From a virus: a DNA stretch of 64,000 bases. Position 1 is the stretch's first letter; every line of letters starts with the position of its first letter. Shown piece after piece: positions 20,614 through 62,200 of the stretch. Location of the stretch: IMG/VR virus record IMGVR_UViG_3300018080_000098, positions 62,001 through 126,000 of that record. One strand, written 5' to 3'. The translations under genes and the position numbers were made by a program. The notes under the pieces are model-generated. The model was not told the DNA's origin and did no database searches. It saw nothing but the letters and a program-made list of their open reading frames with translations.

Positions 20614-21360
20614 CTAAGCCTTCTTCAGGGGTCTACTGAGCTCCACGACCAGAATAGAAGCAGTTTTCGCGTAGCCTACTTGCTGTATAACATTCCCGCT
20701 TGTGGATGGTGGAGTGATAGTGACAGCGCCCGCAGTAGTGGCTGAAACGTAGTAGTAGTTATCAGCAGTTAAAGTAAACCCGGTCATTTCTCCTGAACGC
20801 CCAACGATACACGTGGTTGGGTTGGGTTTAGCTCGCACTATTCCTACGCTTGGCATTGTAGCAGTTGTGTTTGCACGAGCTTTGTCTACACTATCTGGTC
20901 CCGTTTGATAAACTACATCCCGAATTGCCACTGTAGCTGGGCATGCCCATTCTGTTTCTAGCAGTTCAATTTGTGGGATGGGGTCGGCTCCATCGAAGAC
21001 GTGCGTGCTGCCGTGTGCAGGAACTATTCCACCTGGTCCAATTATTACACCGTCCAGGTCATGTGTGGGTTCTCCAAACTTCTGCCTCAGTGCTCCTGTA
21101 GCATCTACCCAATAAGTGTACCCACCTAGGCGTAGTTTTGGCTCCTGGTCCCACTCCGACACGTAATCGATCACCTCATCCAGGTTAACAATTCTGATGA
21201 TGTTTTTGGTAAGGAGATCGCGTATCCTGTAGTCGTTGGTGAGCTTGTCGTATTCTACATACTGGTAGTCCTTTGTTTGGCGCGGACCAAGATTATCGTC
21301 GACTGGATTAGGTAACCCAACCGGGCTCGTCATCAACAAATTTGTGATCCGCACACCCAA
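20614..21360 (-). CDS. Fibre-type protein with docking domain and shared C-terminal beta-module, 248 aa
   Basis: Residues 1-110 share a docking region with the 508-aa protein upstream: a strand-rich start, then LRLGGYTYWVDATGALRQ against LTIGTHEYWIDATGTTRV. A hinge HGSTHVFDGADPI follows near 130. The C-terminal 120 residues are the beta-module also seen in the 1474-, 204- and 904-aa proteins (VVYQTGPDSVDKA, PSVGIVRAKP, YYYVSATTAGAVT, VVELSRPL). The start is TTG at 21360 with AGGAG seven bases upstream; there is no ATG that keeps the docking domain. It is likely a short fibre or a connector for the 977-aa fibre encoded 2 bp downstream. Confidence 0.7.
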   Translation of the reverse strand: MGVRITNLLMTSPVGLPNPVDDNLGPRQTKDYQYVEYDKLTNDYRIRDLLTKNIIRIVNLDEVIDYVSEWDQEPKLRLGGYTYWVDATGALRQKFGEPTHDLDGVIIGPGGIVPAHGSTHVFDGADPIPQIELLETEWACPATVAIRDVVYQTGPDSVDKARANTTATMPSVGIVRAKPNPTTCIVGRSGEMTGFTLTADNYYYVSATTAGAVTITPPSTSGNVIQQVGYAKTASILVVELSRPLKKA

Positions 21361-21388: not shown

Positions 21389-21667
21389 TTATGCGGGCTC
21401 AGTGTACTGTACAAGAATCCCTACTGAAAGGGTGAGCTCAGCACCATCTGCTGGTACCGTAGCGATCTCCGTCCATTCAGCAGGCAACGGGTCTGGCAGC
21501 TCTATACTTCCAATCTCTGCTACAACCTCCTTCAGCATCTCCAATACAGTTTTTTCGCCATCAGCCGTGACCTCTACATCGAGACTCCCGTCACTCTGCA
21601 GACGTAGCGTAGCTGTGTGCTTCGTGTTTACACTGAACCCTCCAACATCTGCGCTCACTGGGGGCAT
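21389..21667 (-). CDS. Hypothetical protein, 92 aa
   Basis: Small protein beginning MPPVSADVGGFSVNTKHTAT. One strand-rich half (LRLQSDGSLDVEVTADGEKT) is followed by a helix (VLEMLKEVVAEIG) and a Pro-rich link to a last strand pair. The start is set at the ATG at 21667, which has AAGGAG 7 nt upstream; an in-frame ATG-like start at 21703 would only add a basic peptide and lies in the hairpin-bearing leader. It lies between two fibre-type genes, after a 160-bp non-coding stretch. It may be a fibre chaperone or minor virion protein, but nothing in the sequence proves this. Confidence 0.6.
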   Translation of the reverse strand: MPPVSADVGGFSVNTKHTATLRLQSDGSLDVEVTADGEKTVLEMLKEVVAEIGSIELPDPLPAEWTEIATVPADGAELTLSVGILVQYTEPA

Positions 21668-21731
21668 CGTTAGTCTCCTTGTGTGCCGCTTGCTGATAAG
21701 CACCCAACAGAATGTTCGATGCGCATTAGCA

Positions 21732-21815
21732 AGCAGCCCCTACTACCAGGGCTGCTCATTATGCCGCCCCTACTACCAGGGCAGCGCGTTAAACCATCCC
21801 TACTACCAGGACGGC
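21732..21815 (-). repeat. Three tandem hairpins on an exact 30-bp period with invariant loop
   Basis: The 10-mer TACTACCAGG occurs on the plus strand at 21741, 21771 and 21801, exactly 30 bp apart. Flanking bases make three stem-loops: arms 21732-21739/21749-21756 (8 bp), 21763-21769/21779-21785 and 21793-21799/21809-21815. In the minus-strand RNA each has the same 9-nt loop UGGUAGUAG. Stem bases differ between copies but stay paired, and the differences that break pairing on the plus strand become G-U pairs in the minus-strand RNA. This favours a function in the mRNA. The array fills the gap between the 508-aa gene stop (21828) and the 92-aa gene start (21667). No U-tract follows, so these are not ordinary terminators. 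Confidence 0.75.
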
Positions 21816-21827
21816 TCCTCGCTAAAT

Positions 21828-23354
21828 TTAATGCGCGCACCGTGCAGGGAGCAATCGGTACGTCGCATGCGGTACCCTCCTTCTTATAGAATAAAGTGGA
21901 TACCAGGCAGATCTCATGCCCGTAAGCTTGTTTCTCCTAGCTACGTACACTTTGTCCGGGTAACTGTTGCTATCAGGATTGTACCCTACGCAACCTGGCT
22001 GTCGCTGTGCGAGTACCGAGCTGAGCTTTAACGGGCTCGGGGTTACAACGGTCCAGTGGGACCACATGTAGTGCTCGTCGTCCGTTCCAACAGTGTACCA
22101 TGGATCGGCCACCACAACATACTTTGGGCGCGACGTGTTCCTGTAAACCAGCTTGAGTGTGAGCTCATAGGTGCCCAAGTCAAAAGATTCAGTGGCAAAC
22201 GAATCGTAGTTGTATGGGTACATCAAGTAAGCACGCCAACGGCCGGACAGATCTACTGGAAATATGATTGCAGATACAGCACTCGTGGCAGCAAGCCCCC
22301 AATCACGTGGGCCAGACGGTATCACAACCTGTAGAATCCTTTTCCTGCCATACTCTTGTAGAATGAATGGGTTTCCTACAACGTAACTTCCTGCAGGCGC
22401 CGGAACTACCCAACTTACTGCTGCTGTATCCCATACAGCACCACGTGCGTTTGGAGGCACGTTTACAATAGACCCAACCTTTGGGAGCCCGTGTTTGCTG
22501 CGCACCCGAATGGTGTGCCAAATAGCGTTGTCCTCATTGACTATAGGGAGCACTCCTGTGTCGGCTTGTACAATCCGTTGAGCGAGCTCACCGTAATAGT
22601 TGGTGTAGTATTGAGGAGCGTTAAACGCACTAGAAACTCCATATGGTTGCGTGCGCCGGTTGTATTTGTATTTTCCAAGAACAGAAGCTACCAATGAATT
22701 TCTATGCACCACCTTGTGCGGGAACGAGTCACTCACATCAACTCGTTCTTCTGTACGGAAATTCATGACACTGGCAGTGTAGACACCTCCAGCAGACGGG
22801 ATTACTGTTTCCATCCAGCTGAAGAGATCGTTGATTGCGTCAAATCTTCGGTACTCCGTCCAAGTGCTTCCCGGATATTTCAAGCTCCAGTAGCAATACT
22901 TATACAGGGTGTCCCAGGTTCCCATGACGCGGTTTTCGAACCAGCTGAAAAACGCTGACCGCACCTGGGCGAACGGACGTCCTGAAACCGGTATCGTGTC
23001 TGAGTAAATCGAGACAGCTTTGTCTGCCGCACCCAACGGGTCTCCGTCTGTGTCCGACGTTGGTGTTCCATCTACCACCCGTGTAGTACCTGTAGCGTCA
23101 ATCCAGTACTCGTGGGTTCCTATTGTCAGGTGCGGAGTTTCGTTCCAACTCCCAGAAAACTGGATGTCCATATCATCCAGATTTTTTATTTTCAGTACTC
23201 CCTTACGAAGGAGGTACTGCACGTTACCATTGTTAATCAGAGAGTCGTACTCAACGTCTTGGTAAACGCGTGCTTCCCCAATATTGAATGCTTGCCCACC
23301 AACACCAGGCACTACAAGTTTGAACGAGCCTTTGTTCCAGATTTTGACTGCCAT
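21828..23354 (-). CDS. Fibre-type protein with docking domain, 508 aa
   Basis: Residues 1-110 share the docking region with the 248-aa protein (YQDVEYDSLINNG, LLRKGVLKIKNLDD, THEYWIDATGTTRV). The remaining 400 residues are unusually rich in Tyr and Trp (YKYCYWSLKYPGSTWTEYRR, APQYYTNYYGELAQ, WYTVGTDDEHYMWSHW), which suits an exposed ligand-contact surface, but I recognise no fold. The C-terminus is basic (YSIRRRVPHATYRLLPARC). It begins 3 bp after the 149-aa gene, and its stop lies 13 bp from the hairpin array. It is likely a short tail fibre or receptor-binding protein. Confidence 0.65.
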   Translation of the reverse strand: MAVKIWNKGSFKLVVPGVGGQAFNIGEARVYQDVEYDSLINNGNVQYLLRKGVLKIKNLDDMDIQFSGSWNETPHLTIGTHEYWIDATGTTRVVDGTPTSDTDGDPLGAADKAVSIYSDTIPVSGRPFAQVRSAFFSWFENRVMGTWDTLYKYCYWSLKYPGSTWTEYRRFDAINDLFSWMETVIPSAGGVYTASVMNFRTEERVDVSDSFPHKVVHRNSLVASVLGKYKYNRRTQPYGVSSAFNAPQYYTNYYGELAQRIVQADTGVLPIVNEDNAIWHTIRVRSKHGLPKVGSIVNVPPNARGAVWDTAAVSWVVPAPAGSYVVGNPFILQEYGRKRILQVVIPSGPRDWGLAATSAVSAIIFPVDLSGRWRAYLMYPYNYDSFATESFDLGTYELTLKLVYRNTSRPKYVVVADPWYTVGTDDEHYMWSHWTVVTPSPLKLSSVLAQRQPGCVGYNPDSNSYPDKVYVARRNKLTGMRSAWYPLYSIRRRVPHATYRLLPARCAH

Positions 23355-29891: not shown

Positions 29892-32800
29892 TTACCAGCC
29901 GCAACCAGCAGAGAAGTCTGTGATGTCGTACTCTACTCTCACAATGTAAACATAGCTAGCACTACTGGAAGCTGTAACGCCGTTTAAAAATTGTACATAA
30001 TACGAATATTGCGTATTGTCTACGGTAGAACTTAGCCCAGATAGGGTAATCGTTTGTACACCGGAAGATAACGCTCCAGTAGTAGTTCCCAGCGAGGTAC
30101 TAATACTAGGAGATCCCGCATTGACTGGATGGCGATAAAGAGTAACCTTAGCTCCACTAGTAGGAACATTTTGGTGATAGCAAACCACCTCAATTTCTTT
30201 AATTGTAGAAGCATGTGGTATATAAAGAGGAGCACAAATTGTTCTAGCAGCTGTCCCTAACGTATACCACCGTTGTGCTGAAGTAGTGCATTGGTATTGC
30301 CAATACGACGTTGTCGTGTTGGTCATATTTTCTTGGAATGAACTGGTGGGTGCCTGTCTTACGTTTGTCTTGGTAGCATTAAATACAATTGCCCGCCTGG
30401 TATCTTCAGTATTACCGCCAGCATAAGCATGATTTAATTCTAAACACTTACCGCTACTAGTTGTGTTAAGACTACCAACGAACAGCGCAGGGGAGGTGTT
30501 ACTGCTATTACTATTACTGATATTGACAACCGCCGCCCCTAGTGCAGTCCACTCACCACTTCCCCGTTGGAACAGATTTGACCCCGCACTGGAGTACACC
30601 CCATAAGTACAGTTATTGCCCGCGTTAAATGCGCACATGTCTAGATCGGTCGATGCGCTGTCTGCTTGAGCATAAAAAGAATTCAAAGCCCCAGCGGTAT
30701 CGGAGGCGTGACGTGTGTGGTAGTAACTGTAGCCGTAGTAGGTTCCGCTCGCAACAGCGGAACTGGAAAGTGACTCTACATGGATCGTGCCTTCACCGGG
30801 AGCTTGCTGTTTACTAAGGTCATTTCCTACATAAAGACCATAGTGCCAATTGTCGTTGGCATGAAATGCGAACGATCCAACCGAATCGTTGGCGTTTGCG
30901 TTCTGCATGTTTGCACGGACGCCATACCAACTACTGCCGTCTGATTGGCTAGCATCTGGGGAAATGTCTAAATTAATACACCTGCCTTCAATGGAGCTAT
31001 TTAGACGACCACTTAAATTGAGGTCAACATAATTAATATCGCTTGTAACGGTACCAAAATCCTCTGTACCCGACCACAAACCGGAGGAAATCCAAAATGC
31101 GTAGTGGTCTGCGGGCCAAGTAGAATCAAAATAAATACCTCGTTTTGATGCGGATCCATTATCAGTAGTCGTTACATACAAACCGTAATAAAATGCCCCA
31201 CCATCATTATTATCATCGGTGATAGATGCTTTGTAACAAGCTACTTTATCATTTGATGCCAATCCAGCGGCATCAGTAGCAATAATACTCTCTACTGTCC
31301 ACCATGCAGCGCTACCGCCACCATTTGCGGGCTCAGATTTAAAATAATTTCTGGAAGAGCTAACAAATGCGCCCCAGTCCCAATTATCATCTGTATAGAA
31401 ACCTGTCTTTACAGAACTACCAGTAGCACTTCCTTCAGCATAAACTCCGTAGTATCCTGAAGAAGCATTATCGGCAGCATTGGCAGTAATATTTGCGTTT
31501 AAAACTCGAACAGCATCTCCCAAACCAAGAGCAGCACTTGCAGCACTATAACGGTTATCGCTAACAGATACAGTTCCGCCAGGAGCACTACCCGGAGTTA
31601 CCCCCACAAAACTAAGTGCAGTTGTGTATAGTCCATAATCCCAATTGGAATCGGTAAAGAAAGCAATTTTATTAGCTGAACCTGTAGTAGACCCGGCAGC
31701 ATAAAACCCCATGTAATAAGCGTTGGAATTATCAGCAGCATTGGGAGTAATGGTAGCGTGGTAAACTAAAACAGAACTGGTGGCTCCTAACGCAGCACCA
31801 CTAGCATCATAACCGCCCCCATAAACACTATAGAGGCCAGCAGTAGCAGTGCTAGGTGTGGGCTCTACAAAAACTGGAGAAGCACTGTTTAATCCATAGT
31901 CCCAATCACCGTCAACCAACACACCAATAGTATCGTTGCTAGCGCTAGCATCCGGAGTAAGGGATAAATTTACACCTCTTATTTTACTGGCGTCGGTAGC
32001 GCTTTCAGTTACATCAAAATTAAAACCGACTAAATCAGGTGCACCCAAGCCAGAAGTGGTTACTACAGCGTCATAAACATTTACACCGGAACTAATACTA
32101 CTTAAGGTGGCGTAGATTTTTGCGCCAGAATAAAGACCGTAATCCCAAGCTGTATCTGCGTAAAATCCATATTTTACAGCTGATCCAGTGGCAGTCCCAT
32201 TTGCATAAAATCCACGAATAGAAGCAGTACCAGGATCACTAGCATGCCCATTAATTTGAGACTCTATACCATTTAAAACAACACCCGCCCCAAGAGTGGT
32301 AGAAGATGAAACCACTTGGAGGCAACTATCAGCTGTAGTAAATGAATCTGTGATATATGCTTTAGCTAATCCGTAAAAACTCTCTTCCCAATTTTGATCT
32401 GCATAAAAAGCTCGCTTGGTAGCGCTTCCCGTAGCAGTACCTTCAGCCAAATAACCATAATATGACCCACCAGCATTATCACCTGCATCTCCAGTAGGTT
32501 TGGCACGATAATGATAAATTATTGCACCGCTAGCTAATCCTGGAGAGGTATACTGACTATCTACAACATGTGTGGAACCAGCAGAAGAACTGGCAGGAGC
32601 TAACACAACAGCAGCTAAAGATTCACTGTACAATCCATAATCGAAATTAGCGTCTGCATAAAATCCATACTGGTTTGTCCAACTACCAACAGTAGTACCC
32701 GCTGCACTAAAAGCTCTAAATGTACCACCACTGTCAGCAGCATCAGCGCTTAGAGTGCCGTAGTAAGCGTGAACATCGGCATTAGTCACACCTGTAGTAG

Positions 32801-34616
32801 AAGAAAATTCTGATTTAGAAATGGTAATGGTGCCTAAATTACCGCCAACTGCGTCTTCATAAACAGAAGCAAAAGAAGGCTGGTCGTCTACAGACCCAAC
32901 CGGAGAATTTTTAGCTTGGAGAATGGGAGAGTTGGTGCTAGCAGAACCTAATCCACGATAAACGTGCAGTCCATACCCAGTGGTAGAGGTTTGCTCGAAT
33001 ACGAGAGGAGCGCCATCAATATCCAGGTGTTTATCGTTGGCGTAGATCATATCCCAGGTAATGAATCCACCACTATTAAGTTCATTAATAGCACCAACAA
33101 TATTTTTTGTTGTGGTGTCTAACGTGACATCAGCGGTAGAGTTAAATGGGATATCTCCAGACCCGTGAGCTTCAAACAGAATGTCGCTGCTGGCGTGATT
33201 AGGAACACTTAGAGTTAAATCATAAGCAGCAGTATCAACATGCATGTTGAGCGTGCGGCCTGAACTAATAGTGGTATTGCCGCCACTTTGGATAACTAAT
33301 TGAGCGGAGCTGCCTGTATCAGCAGAAATATAAATAGCGCCGCCGTTGGTGGTTTGGATATAGCTAACTCCAGTACCTTCATTTTTAATATCAAATCCGT
33401 AACCGCCGTTATCAGTACCAGCGGTAATGTTCACCTGTCGATCTACAGAGGCAACAAAATTTAATCCGGGGTTAAAATTGACACTTCCATTAGCGTTGGT
33501 AAAGTTAATATTTCCTGTACTACAACTAACATTCCAATTACCACTACTTTGTGTCCAAGTAGAGCTACTACCAGCATTGTGAGAAATACCATTGGTGGAC
33601 GTTATGGCAACTGTACTGTTTGTACCATCTGCAGTTAAATAAAGGTGCCCGTTAATAGCAGCTGTGCCCAGATTGAGGACACCTGTTGCAGCTTCTGCAT
33701 CGAAGTACGTGTTGCCATTTGTATCGTCGATAGTAAAGTTGTACGGGGAAGATAGCCGCCAGGTCAGATTCCTGGCGTCCATCGTTACTAATCCTGCGGA
33801 TACGCCGAAGGCGTCGTAGGCCTGATCTAGATCGTTTCCGTCCCCAGTATTGATTTTCACCCACGTGGTGCCATCGTGGGCGAGCTCCCACTCGCTCGTG
33901 CTGCTGTTGTAGCGGATGCCAGGATCGTTGGAGCCTGTTTGGAGAGCAGTGATAGTTTTCGTATTGGCTGCTGTGGGGCCGAGCTCGAGGTTCTGTGCTT
34001 TGATGACGGTGCCTCCACCGTCTACCTGGGTAACCGCGTAGATATAGTCGGGGCTGTTACCTCCCGACCATCCGATGTTGCCGCCACCCGTAGTGTCCCA
34101 CAGCAGGTCTGCTCCACTGCTACCCACCAGGTAGAAGTCTCCGCTCTGCTTGAAGCGGAAGAGTTCTTGGTAAGCTAAGGCGGCATTGGTGTAGCCCATC
34201 GAGAACAGGTCTGCTTCCTGGGGTGGGCTGTTGGTCTGAATGTCGTGGGTGATACGGAACGCGATGTCGTCGTCGGTAGGGCTACCGGAATCGCGGACCT
34301 TGAAGTCGGTTATCCAACCGGTGCCGCTGGTGAGCTTTCGAACGGTAAGCAGGTGATCGGAGTTGTGCGCGTCGTTTAGGGTGAGCGCGTCTTGCGCTTC
34401 GTATGCATCTACTGTGAGGGCGGACTCGGAAAACGAGGAGAGGCTTTTGAGCTTGGTCTCACCACCGTTCAGAACTTGGAGGACCTCGTTCCCAGTGCCT
34501 CCCCTTTCAAGCGTGATAACGTTTCCGGTAGCCTCGGTGTAATTGTGGTGGATGGTGTCGTCACCACTGTACACCCCAAAACCAGCGTCGAACCAAACTG
34601 GTGTTTTGTTCGCCAT
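29892..34616 (-). CDS. Giant repetitive tail fibre, 1574 aa
   Basis: Residues 1-300 resemble parts of the 904-aa fibre (GNDLDQAYDAFG against GNDLQQAYDAFG, followed by matching strands). From about 540 (AND KHLDIDGAPLVFEQTS) to 1400 are roughly nine diverged repeats of 60-120 residues, each with a core like YYGVYAEGSATGSSVKTGFY then WDYGLYS, a pattern of long beta-helical or beta-prism fibre shafts. The last 120 residues (IKEIEVVCYHQNVPTSGAKV, ITLSGLSSTVDNTQYSYYVQ) match the C-terminus of the 416-aa fibre and are probably the receptor tip. Base composition changes inside the gene near 33660: the shaft and tip are A+T-rich, the first 315 codons are not. Confidence 0.8.
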   Translation of the reverse strand: MANKTPVWFDAGFGVYSGDDTIHHNYTEATGNVITLERGGTGNEVLQVLNGGETKLKSLSSFSESALTVDAYEAQDALTLNDAHNSDHLLTVRKLTSGTGWITDFKVRDSGSPTDDDIAFRITHDIQTNSPPQEADLFSMGYTNAALAYQELFRFKQSGDFYLVGSSGADLLWDTTGGGNIGWSGGNSPDYIYAVTQVDGGGTVIKAQNLELGPTAANTKTITALQTGSNDPGIRYNSSTSEWELAHDGTTWVKINTGDGNDLDQAYDAFGVSAGLVTMDARNLTWRLSSPYNFTIDDTNGNTYFDAEAATGVLNLGTAAINGHLYLTADGTNSTVAITSTNGISHNAGSSSTWTQSSGNWNVSCSTGNINFTNANGSVNFNPGLNFVASVDRQVNITAGTDNGGYGFDIKNEGTGVSYIQTTNGGAIYISADTGSSAQLVIQSGGNTTISSGRTLNMHVDTAAYDLTLSVPNHASSDILFEAHGSGDIPFNSTADVTLDTTTKNIVGAINELNSGGFITWDMIYANDKHLDIDGAPLVFEQTSTTGYGLHVYRGLGSASTNSPILQAKNSPVGSVDDQPSFASVYEDAVGGNLGTITISKSEFSSTTGVTNADVHAYYGTLSADAADSGGTFRAFSAAGTTVGSWTNQYGFYADANFDYGLYSESLAAVVLAPASSSAGSTHVVDSQYTSPGLASGAIIYHYRAKPTGDAGDNAGGSYYGYLAEGTATGSATKRAFYADQNWEESFYGLAKAYITDSFTTADSCLQVVSSSTTLGAGVVLNGIESQINGHASDPGTASIRGFYANGTATGSAVKYGFYADTAWDYGLYSGAKIYATLSSISSGVNVYDAVVTTSGLGAPDLVGFNFDVTESATDASKIRGVNLSLTPDASASNDTIGVLVDGDWDYGLNSASPVFVEPTPSTATAGLYSVYGGGYDASGAALGATSSVLVYHATITPNAADNSNAYYMGFYAAGSTTGSANKIAFFTDSNWDYGLYTTALSFVGVTPGSAPGGTVSVSDNRYSAASAALGLGDAVRVLNANITANAADNASSGYYGVYAEGSATGSSVKTGFYTDDNWDWGAFVSSSRNYFKSEPANGGGSAAWWTVESIIATDAAGLASNDKVACYKASITDDNNDGGAFYYGLYVTTTDNGSASKRGIYFDSTWPADHYAFWISSGLWSGTEDFGTVTSDINYVDLNLSGRLNSSIEGRCINLDISPDASQSDGSSWYGVRANMQNANANDSVGSFAFHANDNWHYGLYVGNDLSKQQAPGEGTIHVESLSSSAVASGTYYGYSYYHTRHASDTAGALNSFYAQADSASTDLDMCAFNAGNNCTYGVYSSAGSNLFQRGSGEWTALGAAVVNISNSNSSNTSPALFVGSLNTTSSGKCLELNHAYAGGNTEDTRRAIVFNATKTNVRQAPTSSFQENMTNTTTSYWQYQCTTSAQRWYTLGTAARTICAPLYIPHASTIKEIEVVCYHQNVPTSGAKVTLYRHPVNAGSPSISTSLGTTTGALSSGVQTITLSGLSSTVDNTQYSYYVQFLNGVTASSSASYVYIVRVEYDITDFSAGCGW
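30590..32990 (-). repeat. Protein-level repeat array of the 1574-aa fibre shaft
   Basis: About nine units, each ending in a diverged WDYGLY core: NFDYGLYSE, AWDYGLYSG, DWDYGLNSA, NWDYGLYTT, NWDWGAFVS, NWHYGLYVG and NCTYGVYSS among them, usually preceded by G(F/V)Y(A/T)(D/E). Units differ enough in DNA that simple slippage is no longer likely. Spacing is 60-120 codons and not uniform, with some units lacking the ATGSAxK element. Confidence 0.7.
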
Positions 34617-34676
34617 AATAGAGCCTCAGGCGTGAGTAGTTGGAAGGTGGGCTACTGCAGCTCGCAGCCCCAATCA

Positions 34677-34714
34677 AACGCGGGAGAGGGAGGTTTGTTT
34701 CCCTCTCCCGCGTT
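34677..34714 (-). terminator. Strong hairpin, probable transcription terminator
   Basis: A perfect 15-bp inverted repeat with an 8-nt loop: left arm 34677-34691, right arm 34700-34714, G+C-rich (CGCGGGAGAGGGA). In the minus-strand RNA the stem is followed by UUGAUU, a short imperfect U-tract. It lies 18 bp after the stop of the 904-aa fibre gene and 60 bp before the start of the 1574-aa gene, so it would end the 904-aa transcript. It is by far the strongest hairpin I see in the window. Confidence 0.8.
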
Positions 34715-34732
34715 CTCAGAGACTACGAACTA

Positions 34733-37447
34733 CTACAGGCTGACGCGTGTGCCAATCTGGATGACGAACTTGTTGGCAGCGGTGATGACTCCGACTTTCT
34801 GCACAACAGAGGCACCAGGAGTAGTAGAAACTGCTCCGTCCGCATTCATGTACACGTACTCGCCAGTGTCAGCAGCGGCCAATGCACTACTAGATGTCAC
34901 CTCTCCAGCGAGTGCGATTTCGATGTCTACACCGATCGCGCCACCGTTCAGCGCTACACCAATAGCGCGGCTGGCTGCTGCCACCCCCTGGTCTGCCTGG
35001 TACACCGTATTAGCTGCACCGTTATCCAAGGCTACGAGGTCACCTGTGGTGATGGCTTCTGCAGCTGGGTAAGTGATGGTGGTGTCGCCAACACCAGCAA
35101 CAGCTGTATCCAACGCGAGCAGCGCACTCACTATGGATGTTTCCGCTCCGATGTAGGTACCACCAGTGATGTCCTGGTTGACCGCGTCGTTGTAGGTGAG
35201 AGAGTTTCCTGCGGACCCACGTGCCTCGAACGTGATGTCCCCAGTTGCCCCAGCGACGAGGTCTACGTCGGTAGTTCCGTCGTTCACACCAATCGTGATA
35301 GTGCGGTCGCCATCGGTTCCGATGTTGATACCAAAGTCATCATCATCGTTACCGATGTTTATGGCACCCCCATCGGAATTTAGCGATAACGTAGTACCAG
35401 CATCCAGGTCCATCGTAGTTGTGGCATCTAGACCGATTGAGGTGGTAGCTGTTACTGTGGTGCTAGTTGTGGAGTCAATAGCCACAGCGCCATCCGAATC
35501 GATGTCGATGTCGTCGGCTACCAAGTAGACTTCCGTAGCATCGTTGCTACCTACTTGGATGGTCCGTGCGCCACCAGTACCAACGTTGATATTCTGCGCT
35601 ACAGCATCATCACCAACGTTAATGACTCCTCCAGACGAGTTTATGGAGAGTATGCCACCAGCATCTAGATCCATTGTCGTTGTGGAGGTTGCTGCAACTG
35701 CCCCGTCCGAATCGATGTCGATGTCGTCGGCTACCAAGTAGACTTCCGTAGCATCGTTGCTACCTACTTGGATGGTCCGTGCGCCACCAGTACCAACGTT
35801 GATGTTTTGAGCTACTGCATCGTTACCAACGTTAATTACGTCGCCAGAGGAATTGATGGACACTGCACCGGTTCCATCGATATCCACTGTTGTACCAGCT
35901 ACTCCTACTGGGATGGCCCCGCCAGCACCAACGTTGAAGGCTGTGCCATCGAAGTCCATATCGCCGCCGTCCACATCTAGTGTGGTAGCGTTGAGATCGA
36001 CTGTTTGCCCAGTACCATCAAGTGTTAGTGTGCCTCCAGTAGAGGTGACTGTCACACCACCACCACCTGTGAGGCTGAGCAGGTTCGCACCTGTAGTCGA
36101 CACCGTCATGGTGTTCGCGTTGGTCAGCGTGCGCCCAGCCGTACCGTCGAACGTGATGTTGGTGCCTACGAGGCCAGCGAAATTTACTTCGCGCTCGTTC
36201 ACGCCGCCAGTGGACCCAAGGATCAACGCATCATTGGTCTCGTCGACCCGCAGGAAATCGTCACCATTGTCATCTGTCCAGATAATGTCCCAGTCGGAAC
36301 CAGCTGTAACTTCCCAAGTAAGGTCCCCTGTGGCATCGAGGGTAACTGTTGCCGGTCCACCACCGAAGGCATCGTAGGCTTGCTGCAAGTCGTTACCGAG
36401 GGAACTACCGACAGCTGTCCAGTTCATTCCATCAGCATCACAGAAGTAGATTTTACCACCAGCAGCGGTGCTCATGCATATGTCACCAGTGGTACCAGTG
36501 ACGTTTCCATCCGGGTCTCCGTTGTACACGAAGATGGATCCGTTGATCGAACCTTCTTCGTCAGCGAGTGTTAGGATCGCCTGTTCGGTCGCGCCACGTG
36601 TAATTGTTGCGCCACCATTTTTATTCATTGTCAGGCGCGCGTCTGCGTACCCGTTGTACACCTCGAATAGGTTGTCGTCTGTATTCAGCGCGTAGTTGAC
36701 GGGTCCTACGTTTGCTGTGAACGCAGCGTTGACTTCGAGTGAGGTGTCATTAGTAATCGAGTCGACTCTTCTAATGTCTATTGTTGTACCGTTATCGAGG
36801 TCAACTTCGATGGCATCGCCCACCTGTAGCTCTGTGGTGAACGACGAGTTGGTAGCGGTTAGTGTTGTCCCGTTTGTGGTGTAGTTGTCGCGCGTGAGCG
36901 CTACACCCAAACCACCTTGCGCGATTGTGGTTCCTTCGGGAACAATCTTCAGATCGCCACTCGTGGTAGTGAAGTGGGATGTAACTGCAGCCGCGAAGTT
37001 AATCGCCTGATCTACACTAGCTGTGATGGTCAGTGTATCAGTAGAGGCGTCACCGATATCGGTGTCGCCATTGAAGGTTGCAGAGCCTGTTACTGTCTCC
37101 GCACCGTCCACATCGAGGTCACCCTTGATAGTAACTGTTTGCCCCACGCGTCCGATGTTGATATCGGTGGCGTTCGTTCCGCCGATATTAAACGCTTGCA
37201 CAGCATCCGTATCGATGCCTACACCGAACTGCACCACCGTTGCGTTCGTTCCACCGATGACCAGCGCTTCCGCTGCGTCTTTATCGATGTTTGCACCGAA
37301 CTCGACAGCAGTCGCGTTCGTTCCACCTACTGTCAGAACGCCACCACCGGAACCAAAGTCAACTGATGCTGCCAGAAGACCATCGTTGTCGGAGTCCAGT
37401 TGTGTGACTGATCCAGCGTTAATCCAAAGTGCTTCTCTGTCTGCCAT
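34733..37447 (-). CDS. Tail fibre with internal tandem repeats and shared C-terminal module, 904 aa
   Basis: Residues 1-110 hold short beta repeats (VLTVGGTNATAVEFGANIDK, LVIGGTNATVVQFGVGIDTD). A middle part (GNDLQQAYDAFGGGPATVTL) matches the 1574-aa fibre. Residues about 500-750 are a Gly/Asp/Thr-rich shaft with 71-residue repeats, each with INSSGxVINVGxDAVAQNIN and TIQVGSNDATEVYLVADDID, typical of elongated beta-structured spikes. The last 115 residues are the beta-module shared with the 204-, 248- and 1474-aa proteins (AITTGDLVALDNGAANTVY, YVYMNADGAVSTTPGASVV). The ATG at 37447 has AAGGAAAGGGG upstream. A strong hairpin follows the stop, suggesting high and separate expression of this gene and the 156-aa gene before it. 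Confidence 0.78.
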   Translation of the reverse strand: MADREALWINAGSVTQLDSDNDGLLAASVDFGSGGGVLTVGGTNATAVEFGANIDKDAAEALVIGGTNATVVQFGVGIDTDAVQAFNIGGTNATDINIGRVGQTVTIKGDLDVDGAETVTGSATFNGDTDIGDASTDTLTITASVDQAINFAAAVTSHFTTTSGDLKIVPEGTTIAQGGLGVALTRDNYTTNGTTLTATNSSFTTELQVGDAIEVDLDNGTTIDIRRVDSITNDTSLEVNAAFTANVGPVNYALNTDDNLFEVYNGYADARLTMNKNGGATITRGATEQAILTLADEEGSINGSIFVYNGDPDGNVTGTTGDICMSTAAGGKIYFCDADGMNWTAVGSSLGNDLQQAYDAFGGGPATVTLDATGDLTWEVTAGSDWDIIWTDDNGDDFLRVDETNDALILGSTGGVNEREVNFAGLVGTNITFDGTAGRTLTNANTMTVSTTGANLLSLTGGGGVTVTSTGGTLTLDGTGQTVDLNATTLDVDGGDMDFDGTAFNVGAGGAIPVGVAGTTVDIDGTGAVSINSSGDVINVGNDAVAQNINVGTGGARTIQVGSNDATEVYLVADDIDIDSDGAVAATSTTTMDLDAGGILSINSSGGVINVGDDAVAQNINVGTGGARTIQVGSNDATEVYLVADDIDIDSDGAVAIDSTTSTTVTATTSIGLDATTTMDLDAGTTLSLNSDGGAINIGNDDDDFGINIGTDGDRTITIGVNDGTTDVDLVAGATGDITFEARGSAGNSLTYNDAVNQDITGGTYIGAETSIVSALLALDTAVAGVGDTTITYPAAEAITTGDLVALDNGAANTVYQADQGVAAASRAIGVALNGGAIGVDIEIALAGEVTSSSALAAADTGEYVYMNADGAVSTTPGASVVQKVGVITAANKFVIQIGTRVSL
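35493..35590 (-). repeat. 98-bp direct repeat, copy 1
   Basis: These 98 bases are identical to 35706-35803, 213 bp (71 codons) away, within the shaft of the 904-aa fibre gene. Perfect DNA identity, not just protein similarity, points to a recent duplication or ongoing gene conversion between the two units. Confidence 0.9.
35706..35803 (-). repeat. 98-bp direct repeat, copy 2
   Basis: Identical to 35493-35590. The offset is a whole number of codons, so recombination between copies would add or remove 71 residues from the fibre shaft without breaking the frame. Confidence 0.9.
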
Positions 37448-59271: not shown

Positions 59272-62200
59272 CTATCGGATGGGTAGAACTTTATCTCCAC
59301 TGGCGAGCCCCTTCATTGAGCTTCTTCCGCGCTTTGCCTGGTTTCTGAGATATTTCTTCGTTTGTTCGCCAACAAATTTGTTGCTCATCAGCATCTGCAG
59401 CCCCTTTTTAAACTTTTTGCCTCTTCGTGAATATAAAAATCCCTTTCCTTCGTACAAGGCAGCAAGCTCCTTAGCAGGTTTTGCAGCACATTTTTTGAGC
59501 TTTTCTTTATTGTACACGTACCCAGTACTGATTTTGAGGTACTGTCCAGTGAACATGTCGCGCGCTCGCGCTTTCAGTTTACACTTTTTAATCTGTACTT
59601 CTAGCTGGTTTATTCGTTTTTGGCTGAAGCGTTGACAAAATGTAGCCGCCGCATTGTTATATGCAGCGTCTAACCTGGCAAAATTCGCCTGCTCACTCAT
59701 AACCCTGTGGTACTTCTGTACTTTACCGTTAGGTTTTGGTATAAGTAGCTGCGATGGCAAAAAGAAAAATGCCCCGTTCACCCAAACCCATAGCTGCCCC
59801 CTACCTATTCCTTCAGGTGGGACGACAAACTTTTTGTACGTATTCCTTTTTTTATAGTACGCTATAACATCTTTCACTGTAATCTTCTTTTTGCCTTTAA
59901 CCCAACGCCTGATTCCCCGCCTGCGCCAGTATGAATTCCAATAACCTCTAGCTTCTTTGTTCATTGTATTAGGTATTTTGTTTGGGCCTTTCCGTGGATC
60001 TGACCCGGTGTACCCAGTATAAAAAGTGGCCCTGGCCCGTATCTGCGCATCTATGTACTGCTTGTTCGCTGCCAACGTGACTCGTAAAGACTCATCGTCT
60101 GCAGCATTTCCTGTACTTCTATTTCTTACCTGCATACCAAAATGCAAGTGCTCATTCGAAGTCCCACTGTTCCCAGACCAGCAAATCTGTTCACCAGCTC
60201 GCATCAAAGGTTTGTCTGGGCTGCCACGTTTCCAGTTTTTATGCCCACCTAAAGTTTGATCTTTATTCGGTCCCATCCTTCGGATATCGGATAGATGAAT
60301 GTAAGCAAGTTTGACCCAAAGCTTTCCACCATTGTTGAGGGAAATTTGAGTGCTCCCCTCTTTATGCTTTGGCAGTGATGCCCAACCTTCAATATCCAAG
60401 CGTAGCCCACCACTTTGATGTTTACGTTCCAATTTAATACCACTGCGCCACCCACCAAGATTTTTCCATATTACGTAAGGCTCAAAATATATTTTCATAT
60501 AGCCTTTCTTTACTTCTTCCTTGATCCTACCCAGCGCAAACTGTTTAAGCGCTCTTCTACTACTACTCCCCCGACCAATCTTCACCCACGCAATGCGACT
60601 GATTCCCGACTCTCCCCACCTTCCTACTTTCATAGAAGCATGCGCTTTGATCACATCAATAGGAGTAAGACATGGAGTTCCTACACCTGCGGGTAAATCC
60701 CACCCATAATGAGCAGCGTCTCTCCCTCCACGCCCCTTCTTAAATTTTTTCCTGGTTAAGTAAGGGTCCTCATACGCTTCGTAACCGCACCTCTGAAACC
60801 TACGCAAAAATCCAAAGGCTGAATACTCAACCTGCCTACCGGGAGAAGGAATATACTTCCAAGCGTCCCGCATGTACAGAATCGGGTCCCCGGTAGCCCT
60901 CCCAACCTCGACATTCGTTAAGTCGGGTGGGCTTGTTGGATTTGTTTTGACAGGAGACTTAGACCGAATACCCGCTGTAACCGTCTCCACCGCCATCCCG
61001 CGAGGCATCGACATACGACGCATATTGACCGGAGTTGCGTACGCAGCCCCCCATTGCGTCGCTACCGCTGCAGAAAAAGCACTAGCCGTCCGCGCCGCCG
61101 TGGCCAAGTCACCAGAACACCCCGCACCAGTAGTGCTCGCCTTCGTCGCCTTCCCACCACCCTTCGGACCCTCTTTAGGTGTTAGCACCTTGTTCCCATC
61201 CCGCGAAAATAGCCCCGTAAAAAAGTTCGTGTAATTAATCGGCTGCCTAGGCCCACCCGCAATAAACCTAAAAGTTCCATCACGGAACAGCCATCGCGTG
61301 TACGCCAGGTTGGTATCCGTATTACAAGTTCCCAAAGGAGGATTCATCGTATGCGTAACAGATTTCACCAACCCTATCCGCTGCCTTGGTACCAACCAAA
61401 TAGGACGGTTCGGAACAACGTAAGGACGGAACGGCATCGACACCTGCATGCTGTGCGCTTGCCCCAACTGCCGCTGAATGTGGAACAGCGCATATATCTT
61501 CAGCTGGTCAGCCGCCTGCTGCAGCTCAGTCTTAGTGAACTGAACCTTCCCATCTTTCCCCTTTTTCTTTGATACATCACCTGCACCACCCAATCCAGGG
61601 ATCTTGAGATTGATGTTCTCTACCCGCACGCCCAAACGCCGCGCCAAAGTAGTCGCTATGAATACACGCGTCCGAAAAAAGTTCTCATTAAGCGTTCCCT
61701 TCGTTTGGTTCTCGAGCTGCTTGTCTATATGAATACCCTTGACTACCCAAGCTGTAGGTATCTCCTGCGCCTCCTCCGCTATCGTAGCGTCAGACCAATC
61801 ACGACTTAACGTATACGCCTGATGTACGATGTTCCCGAAATCCCGTGGGAACGCATTATAATGAGGGAACTCGAAAACAAAGTCTCCCCACCCATTTATC
61901 CAATACTGGTAATCGATCACCGAGCATATATCATCCAACAACTTCTTCCGTGTCTCGTACACCACATTAAGTGAATTGTGCGTAACCTTCGAAGTGTTCT
62001 TTTGTACAATTGTAGAAGCGCCTGTGCCACCCGCAGGCATCAATAAATGGTAAAAAGCATTCAAAGGAGAAAACGCGCTACCCATATCCGATGTGGTCCC
62101 CTGACCCGCCTCCGTAACCTCTGGGTAGGTTAACGGTCTCCCCATTATACCGAACAAGACTATCCGATTCCACTTGTCCAACAAATGCCTTCCAGGAATA

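Follow-up and report, generated by a model that had tools for sequence, protein, structure and literature searches.

Does an array of three hairpins with one shared loop, lying in a gap of ~160 nt between two phage genes, act as RNA, and if so, in what role? The array is located in a stretch of 64,000 nucleotides, here called the window, which is part of a virus record of 349,793 bases (IMGVR_UViG_3300018080_000098, positions 62,001 to 126,000). The tail-sheath gene had a PHROG tail sheath match (E 6e-107), and the sheath is 42% identical to PhiPA3 gp165 across 59% of its length. On the basis of these matches we assign the ~350-kb record to a jumbo phage whose sheath is PhiPA3/phiKZ-like. A PhiPA3 nuclear-shell query, run without a positive control, had no match in four records. 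Downstream of the sheath gene, the minus-strand order is small genes, p508, the gap that holds the array, p104, p248 and p977, the last being a large gene with spike-like matches. The features of the locus are collected in Table 1.

Residues 27-104 of p508 are paralogous to the N-terminal part of p248 (20614-21360) in the same structural block, which makes it probable that p508, too, encodes a structural protein. For the same reason, the label "fibre mRNA" that the first-pass annotation gave to the p508-p104 message is plausible. A similar C-terminal domain is common to p204 and p248, as seen from tblastn cross-matches. No family or fold was found that identifies p508 or p104, and the AlphaFold models of both (mean pLDDT of 34 and 46, respectively) were too poor for a fold search. 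Homologues of the two proteins were found in a single related phage, L112 (IMGVR_UViG_3300031673_000125), among the viral contigs searched, and none were found in the phage collection.

Table 1. Features of the p508-p104 region (window coordinates; hairpin sequences are given 5' to 3' as RNA).
Feature	Position	Strand	Description
p508, upstream gene (508 aa)	21828-23354	-	N-terminal likeness to p248; in the two array-bearing phages only
Hairpin 1	21793-21815	-	GCCGUCC-UGGUAGUAG-GGAUGGU; 7-bp core, 9 bp with 21791-21817; against L112, both sides changed in 2 pairs and one side in 1, pairing kept
Hairpin 2	21763-21785	-	GCUGCCC-UGGUAGUAG-GGGCGGC; against L112, two one-sided changes, pairing kept
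Hairpin 3	21733-21755	-	GCAGCCC-UGGUAGUAG-GGGCUGC; 9 bp with 21731-21757; against L112, two compensatory double changes
Hairpin 4, long imperfect stem	21685-21737	-	Outer 5 bp formed by 21733-21737 with 21685-21689; before the p104 Shine-Dalgarno
Shine-Dalgarno of p104	21675-21679	-	AGGAG; 7 nt ahead of the ATG at 21667
p104, downstream gene	21389-21667	-	92 aa from the likely start MPPV (ATG at 21667), 104 aa from an upstream GTG; in the two array-bearing phages only

The array consists of three copies of a 13-mer, CCTGGTAGTAGGG on the coding strand, with an exact period of 30 bp. In its plus-strand form, CCCTACTACCAGG, the 13-mer begins at 21738, 21768 and 21798 (start-to-start spacing of 30 and 30). 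The first-pass annotation had placed a 10-mer at these sites; the copies are where it put them, and the shared string is longer than it claimed. Each copy contributes to a hairpin whose 9-nt loop, UGGUAGUAG, is invariant and has C-G closing pairs. The three stems have 7-bp cores, and in the minus-strand RNA all 21 of the core pairs form; on the plus strand the number is 18, because three of them read as G-U in the sense strand but as A-C in its complement. It had been noted earlier that some differences between the units pair only in the minus-strand RNA, as G-U; this holds, with three such pairs rather than two. As also noted then, no U-tract follows any of the hairpins. The sense strand of the gap (159 nt) folded with an energy of -72.1 kcal/mol (z -5.0; 0/200 shuffles as low), while the antisense strand gave a z of -1.9.

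The array was the top-scoring tandem repeat within the window, and two consecutive hairpins with an identical loop occurred nowhere else in it. A 12-mer of the repeat had no second site in the 349,793-base record, and a covariance model of the unit found nothing else convincing there beyond the three copies. The loop was also followed into other sequences. Thirty viral stretches contained CCCTGGTAGTAGGGG, and of these only the L112 contig had three hairpins. Likewise, 108 viral stretches with two loop copies were screened for stems, and there was no matching array except in the L112 contig; most of these stretches look like coding repeats. The bacterial matches were to a different 25-bp repeat in Omnitrophota MAGs and to one other MAG. 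In the Omnitrophota MAGs (L132-L137, L139-L143), the palindromic repeat GCCTGGTAGTAGGCCAGGCGTCCCT is arranged in tandem and, in two genomes, is present in several places. Its hairpin differs from ours, and the 12 nt that it has in common with the array are probably due to chance.

In L112, an array is present at the same place, with three units, an exact 30-nt period and identical loops. The two phages share 83% identity in the sheath, 89% in p149 (78% in the gap comparison), 67-68% in p508 and 62-66% in p104. The gap itself is 73% identical, compared to 67% for p508, 66% for p104, 56% for p248 and 78% for p149 in the same comparison. By sequence identity, the noncoding gap is thus conserved better than p508, p104 and p248 and less well than p149. 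The core stems differ by 9 substitutions in 42 columns, and yet 21/21 pairs are kept: three pairs were altered on both sides, three on one side, and none were lost. In hairpin 3, for example, the stem GCGACCC/GGGUCGC of L112 replaces that of the window phage. A null model with transitions only kept 17.7 core pairs on average compared to the 21 seen (P about 0.02). The loop bases were identical at 27/27 positions, in contrast to 56/93 of the other gap columns. In an alignment of all six units, 96% of cells were paired and the covariation score was 0.459 compared to 0.237 after shuffling (0/500 as high), a signal that was lost on sliding the register. The non-Watson-Crick core pairs comprised five G-U and no A-C in the mRNA sense, and the L112 gap folded with a z of -6.7. 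A protein-coding repeat was ruled out by stops in every frame through the L112 array.

Collectively, the compensatory stem changes, the invariant loop, the presence of G-U in the mRNA sense only and the lack of an open frame through the L112 array provide strong evidence, from a sequence comparison of two phages, that the array is a functional RNA structure in the coding-strand sense. Compensatory change at an orthologous noncoding position in the two phages places the array in the broad class of cis-acting structured RNAs. The first-pass annotation had proposed action as RNA in this direction and had named the lack of a homologous array in related phages, or a loop that varied without its stem, as observations that would speak against it. 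L112 supports its proposal, since it carries such an array and displays the reverse pattern, with variable stems around a fixed loop.

The relatives L113 and L114 (sheath identity of 79 and 72%, respectively) have p149 directly followed by p248, and p508, the array and p104 are all missing as a block. The corresponding sites are 11717-13682 in L112, about 10210 in L113 and about 11385 in L114, and the covariance model detected no convincing array elsewhere in the L113 and L114 records. This joint absence indicates that the array belongs to a p508-p104 cassette, which fits a cis element. The joint loss was not part of the first-pass annotation, and neither was a fourth hairpin that overlaps hairpin 3.

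Hairpin 3 and the extended form of hairpin 4 are mutually exclusive, since the outer pairs of hairpin 4 reuse the 3' arm of hairpin 3. This competition is present in both phages. At position 21736 in the shared arm, C is changed to U between the phages, and both alternative partners are changed from G to A. Between the window phage and L112, 18/18 tested pairs of hairpin 4 were kept despite 7 substitutions, the tested set leaving out one A-C mismatch inside the window stem; the P value of about 0.04 is modest, as is that for the core stems, and the two tests compare the same two phages and share five columns. The overlap looks like a conserved alternative pairing. Folding of the local stretch favoured extended hairpin 4 by ~2 kcal/mol in the window phage and by 8 in L112, and in a longer window context including the p104 coding sequence the two states were within ~1 kcal/mol of each other. 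A switch that masks the ribosome-binding site was put to a folding test: with either hairpin 3 or extended hairpin 4 forced, the p104 Shine-Dalgarno of the window phage was ~62-84% unpaired. Some partial masking by hairpin 4 was predicted in L112. For the window phage, the folding models therefore do not support a simple mechanism in which hairpin 4 hides the ribosome-binding site of p104.

The hairpins probably function in folded form within the messenger RNA, and we take them to be a cis-acting RNA structure in a structural-gene transcript that spans p508 and p104. What the structure does is less certain, and we tentatively favour, at somewhat less than even odds, an operator-type role, offering three sites for a protein that reads the loop. 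Protein-read sites are expected to combine an invariant loop and invariant closing pairs with variable stems in several copies, here three. The loop and its closing pairs would be read by a sequence-specific RNA-binding protein, and the fixed spacing suggests that it may occupy the three sites together. Hairpin 3 would form first during transcription. The bound protein would hold it against hairpin 4 and so alter how the message is translated, stabilised or processed at the p508-p104 boundary, setting the ratio of p104 to p508. Either p508 or p104 might be the ligand, as might some other RNA-binding protein from the phage or the host.

An ordinary role in processing or stabilising the message is almost as good a fit as the operator role. 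The cluster might act as a block to 3'-exonucleases or as a cleavage site for an RNase (RNase III or E), giving the p508 and p104 messages different stabilities; the needs of a nuclease or of folding would then account for the conserved loop. We regard such a boundary element as possible but rather doubtful. The array lies directly after the p508 stop and before p104, its folds are very stable in both phages and it has no U-tract, all of which would suit this role; nuclease barriers, however, normally need no identical 9-nt loop, no triple copies with a fixed period and no conserved alternative pairing, and the array was found only once in the record. The processing role gains weight from a second strongly folded gap at 34600-34740 on the minus strand, between the structural genes 34733-37447 and 29892-34616, since a 31-bp two-part hairpin between other structural genes suggests a general habit. 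This second hairpin (-67.4 kcal/mol, z -7.5) is built of two stems (15 and 16 bp) stacked on one another and has a loop of 8, no long U-tract and no array-type loop, and no convincing copy was found in the relatives' records. An intrinsic terminator was rejected, as a terminator scan gave no match in the gap and a U-tract is lacking. The same two observations count against a partial terminator or attenuator, in which the hairpins would stop part of transcription after p508, although the scan was designed around terminators of the host type and may not suit phage polymerases. In bacteria, transcript ends have been linked to clusters of hairpins that lie no more than 80 nt from a stop codon and lack U-tracts (PMC8355165), which favours partial termination here, but the invariant loop would be left unexplained and we consider this quite unlikely.

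Slightly less probable again is an independent small RNA or sponge that would use its three loops to sequester, in trans, a protein or an RNA of complementary sequence, for instance one with a 5'-CUACCA-3' end. The display of one exposed loop in multiple copies, here three, resembles Csr/Rsm-type sponges. However, no promoter-like site was found beside the array, the array is linked to its two neighbour genes, and the GGA found in Csr sites is missing from the loop. As short direct repeats of dyad symmetry are a usual mark of DNA bound by proteins, the array could in principle be a DNA-level element (iterons, cruciforms, or a recombination or replication site) with an incidental likeness to RNA. 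This we consider very improbable, given that every imperfect core pair is G-U when read as mRNA (5, against no A-C) and would turn into an A-C mismatch in the opposite strand, and that folding in the window is unusual on the sense strand only.

If the operator-type reading is taken further, the array could represent a phage RNA motif of a new type, an operator whose three sites would serve for the assembly of an RNA-binding protein encoded by the phage. The third site would be coupled to a mutually exclusive helix, the number of bound copies would tune the output of the next structural protein, and the gene-array-gene cassette would move as a unit. We think this full version unlikely. No described match was found in the literature searched, the coverage of which was incomplete. 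The structural operons of jumbo phages are large, and little is known about how the amounts of their many proteins are set. A small fixed-loop motif, kept by compensatory change in a gap that is better conserved than the flanking cassette genes, offers a handle on post-transcriptional control and on a putative RNA-binding protein; should a protein read the loop, the hairpin could also serve as a ready-made RNA tag.

Several known types of element were rejected. A CRISPR-like array is rejected, as the units have no unrelated spacers. For a TIGR-Tas array, no PF01798 (Nop/Tas) match was found in the window's record or in that of L112, while archaeal control genomes did match; unrelated guide spacers are also absent, the arms being self-complementary and changing in pairs. 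For a diversity-generating retroelement, neither the window's record nor that of L112 (a 44-kb fragment) had an RVT_1 match, and the 3' end of the upstream gene matched only itself in the record, with no template copy. A more distant relative (sheath identity of 67%) has a reverse transcriptase gene (L119, in the record of L117, 27880-28599), which is possibly part of such a retroelement.

The first-pass annotation knew of no described phage element of this kind. In agreement, a cmscan of the whole window gave no Rfam match above the gathering score, but hairpins between cistrons are, as a general class, familiar from phages. Like the array, the C-UUCG-G hairpins of T4 and the RNase III sites of T7 are stable hairpins that lie between genes of a single transcript and share recurring features; they recur at many sites of the genome, whereas the array loop is confined to one locus, in three copies. 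Csr/Rsm sponge RNAs also present one loop sequence on several hairpins, but their loop motif differs and the array is embedded between two protein genes. TIGR arrays are similar in having tandem short stem-loop units in phage genomes (PMC12045711), and the present array differs from them in lacking a Nop/Tas gene, a box C/D layout and variable guide spacers. In the T4 gene 43 operator, the hairpin loop is conserved and the rest varies between T4 and RB69 (PMC3014915). The array has in common with translational operators of this type a conserved loop, a free stem and a hairpin upstream of a phage gene, and is unlike them in its three fixed-period copies, its competing hairpin and its hairpins being clear of the ribosome-binding site. 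Together, these comparisons suggest by analogy that the array may work most like phage mRNA operators such as the T4 gene 43 operator.
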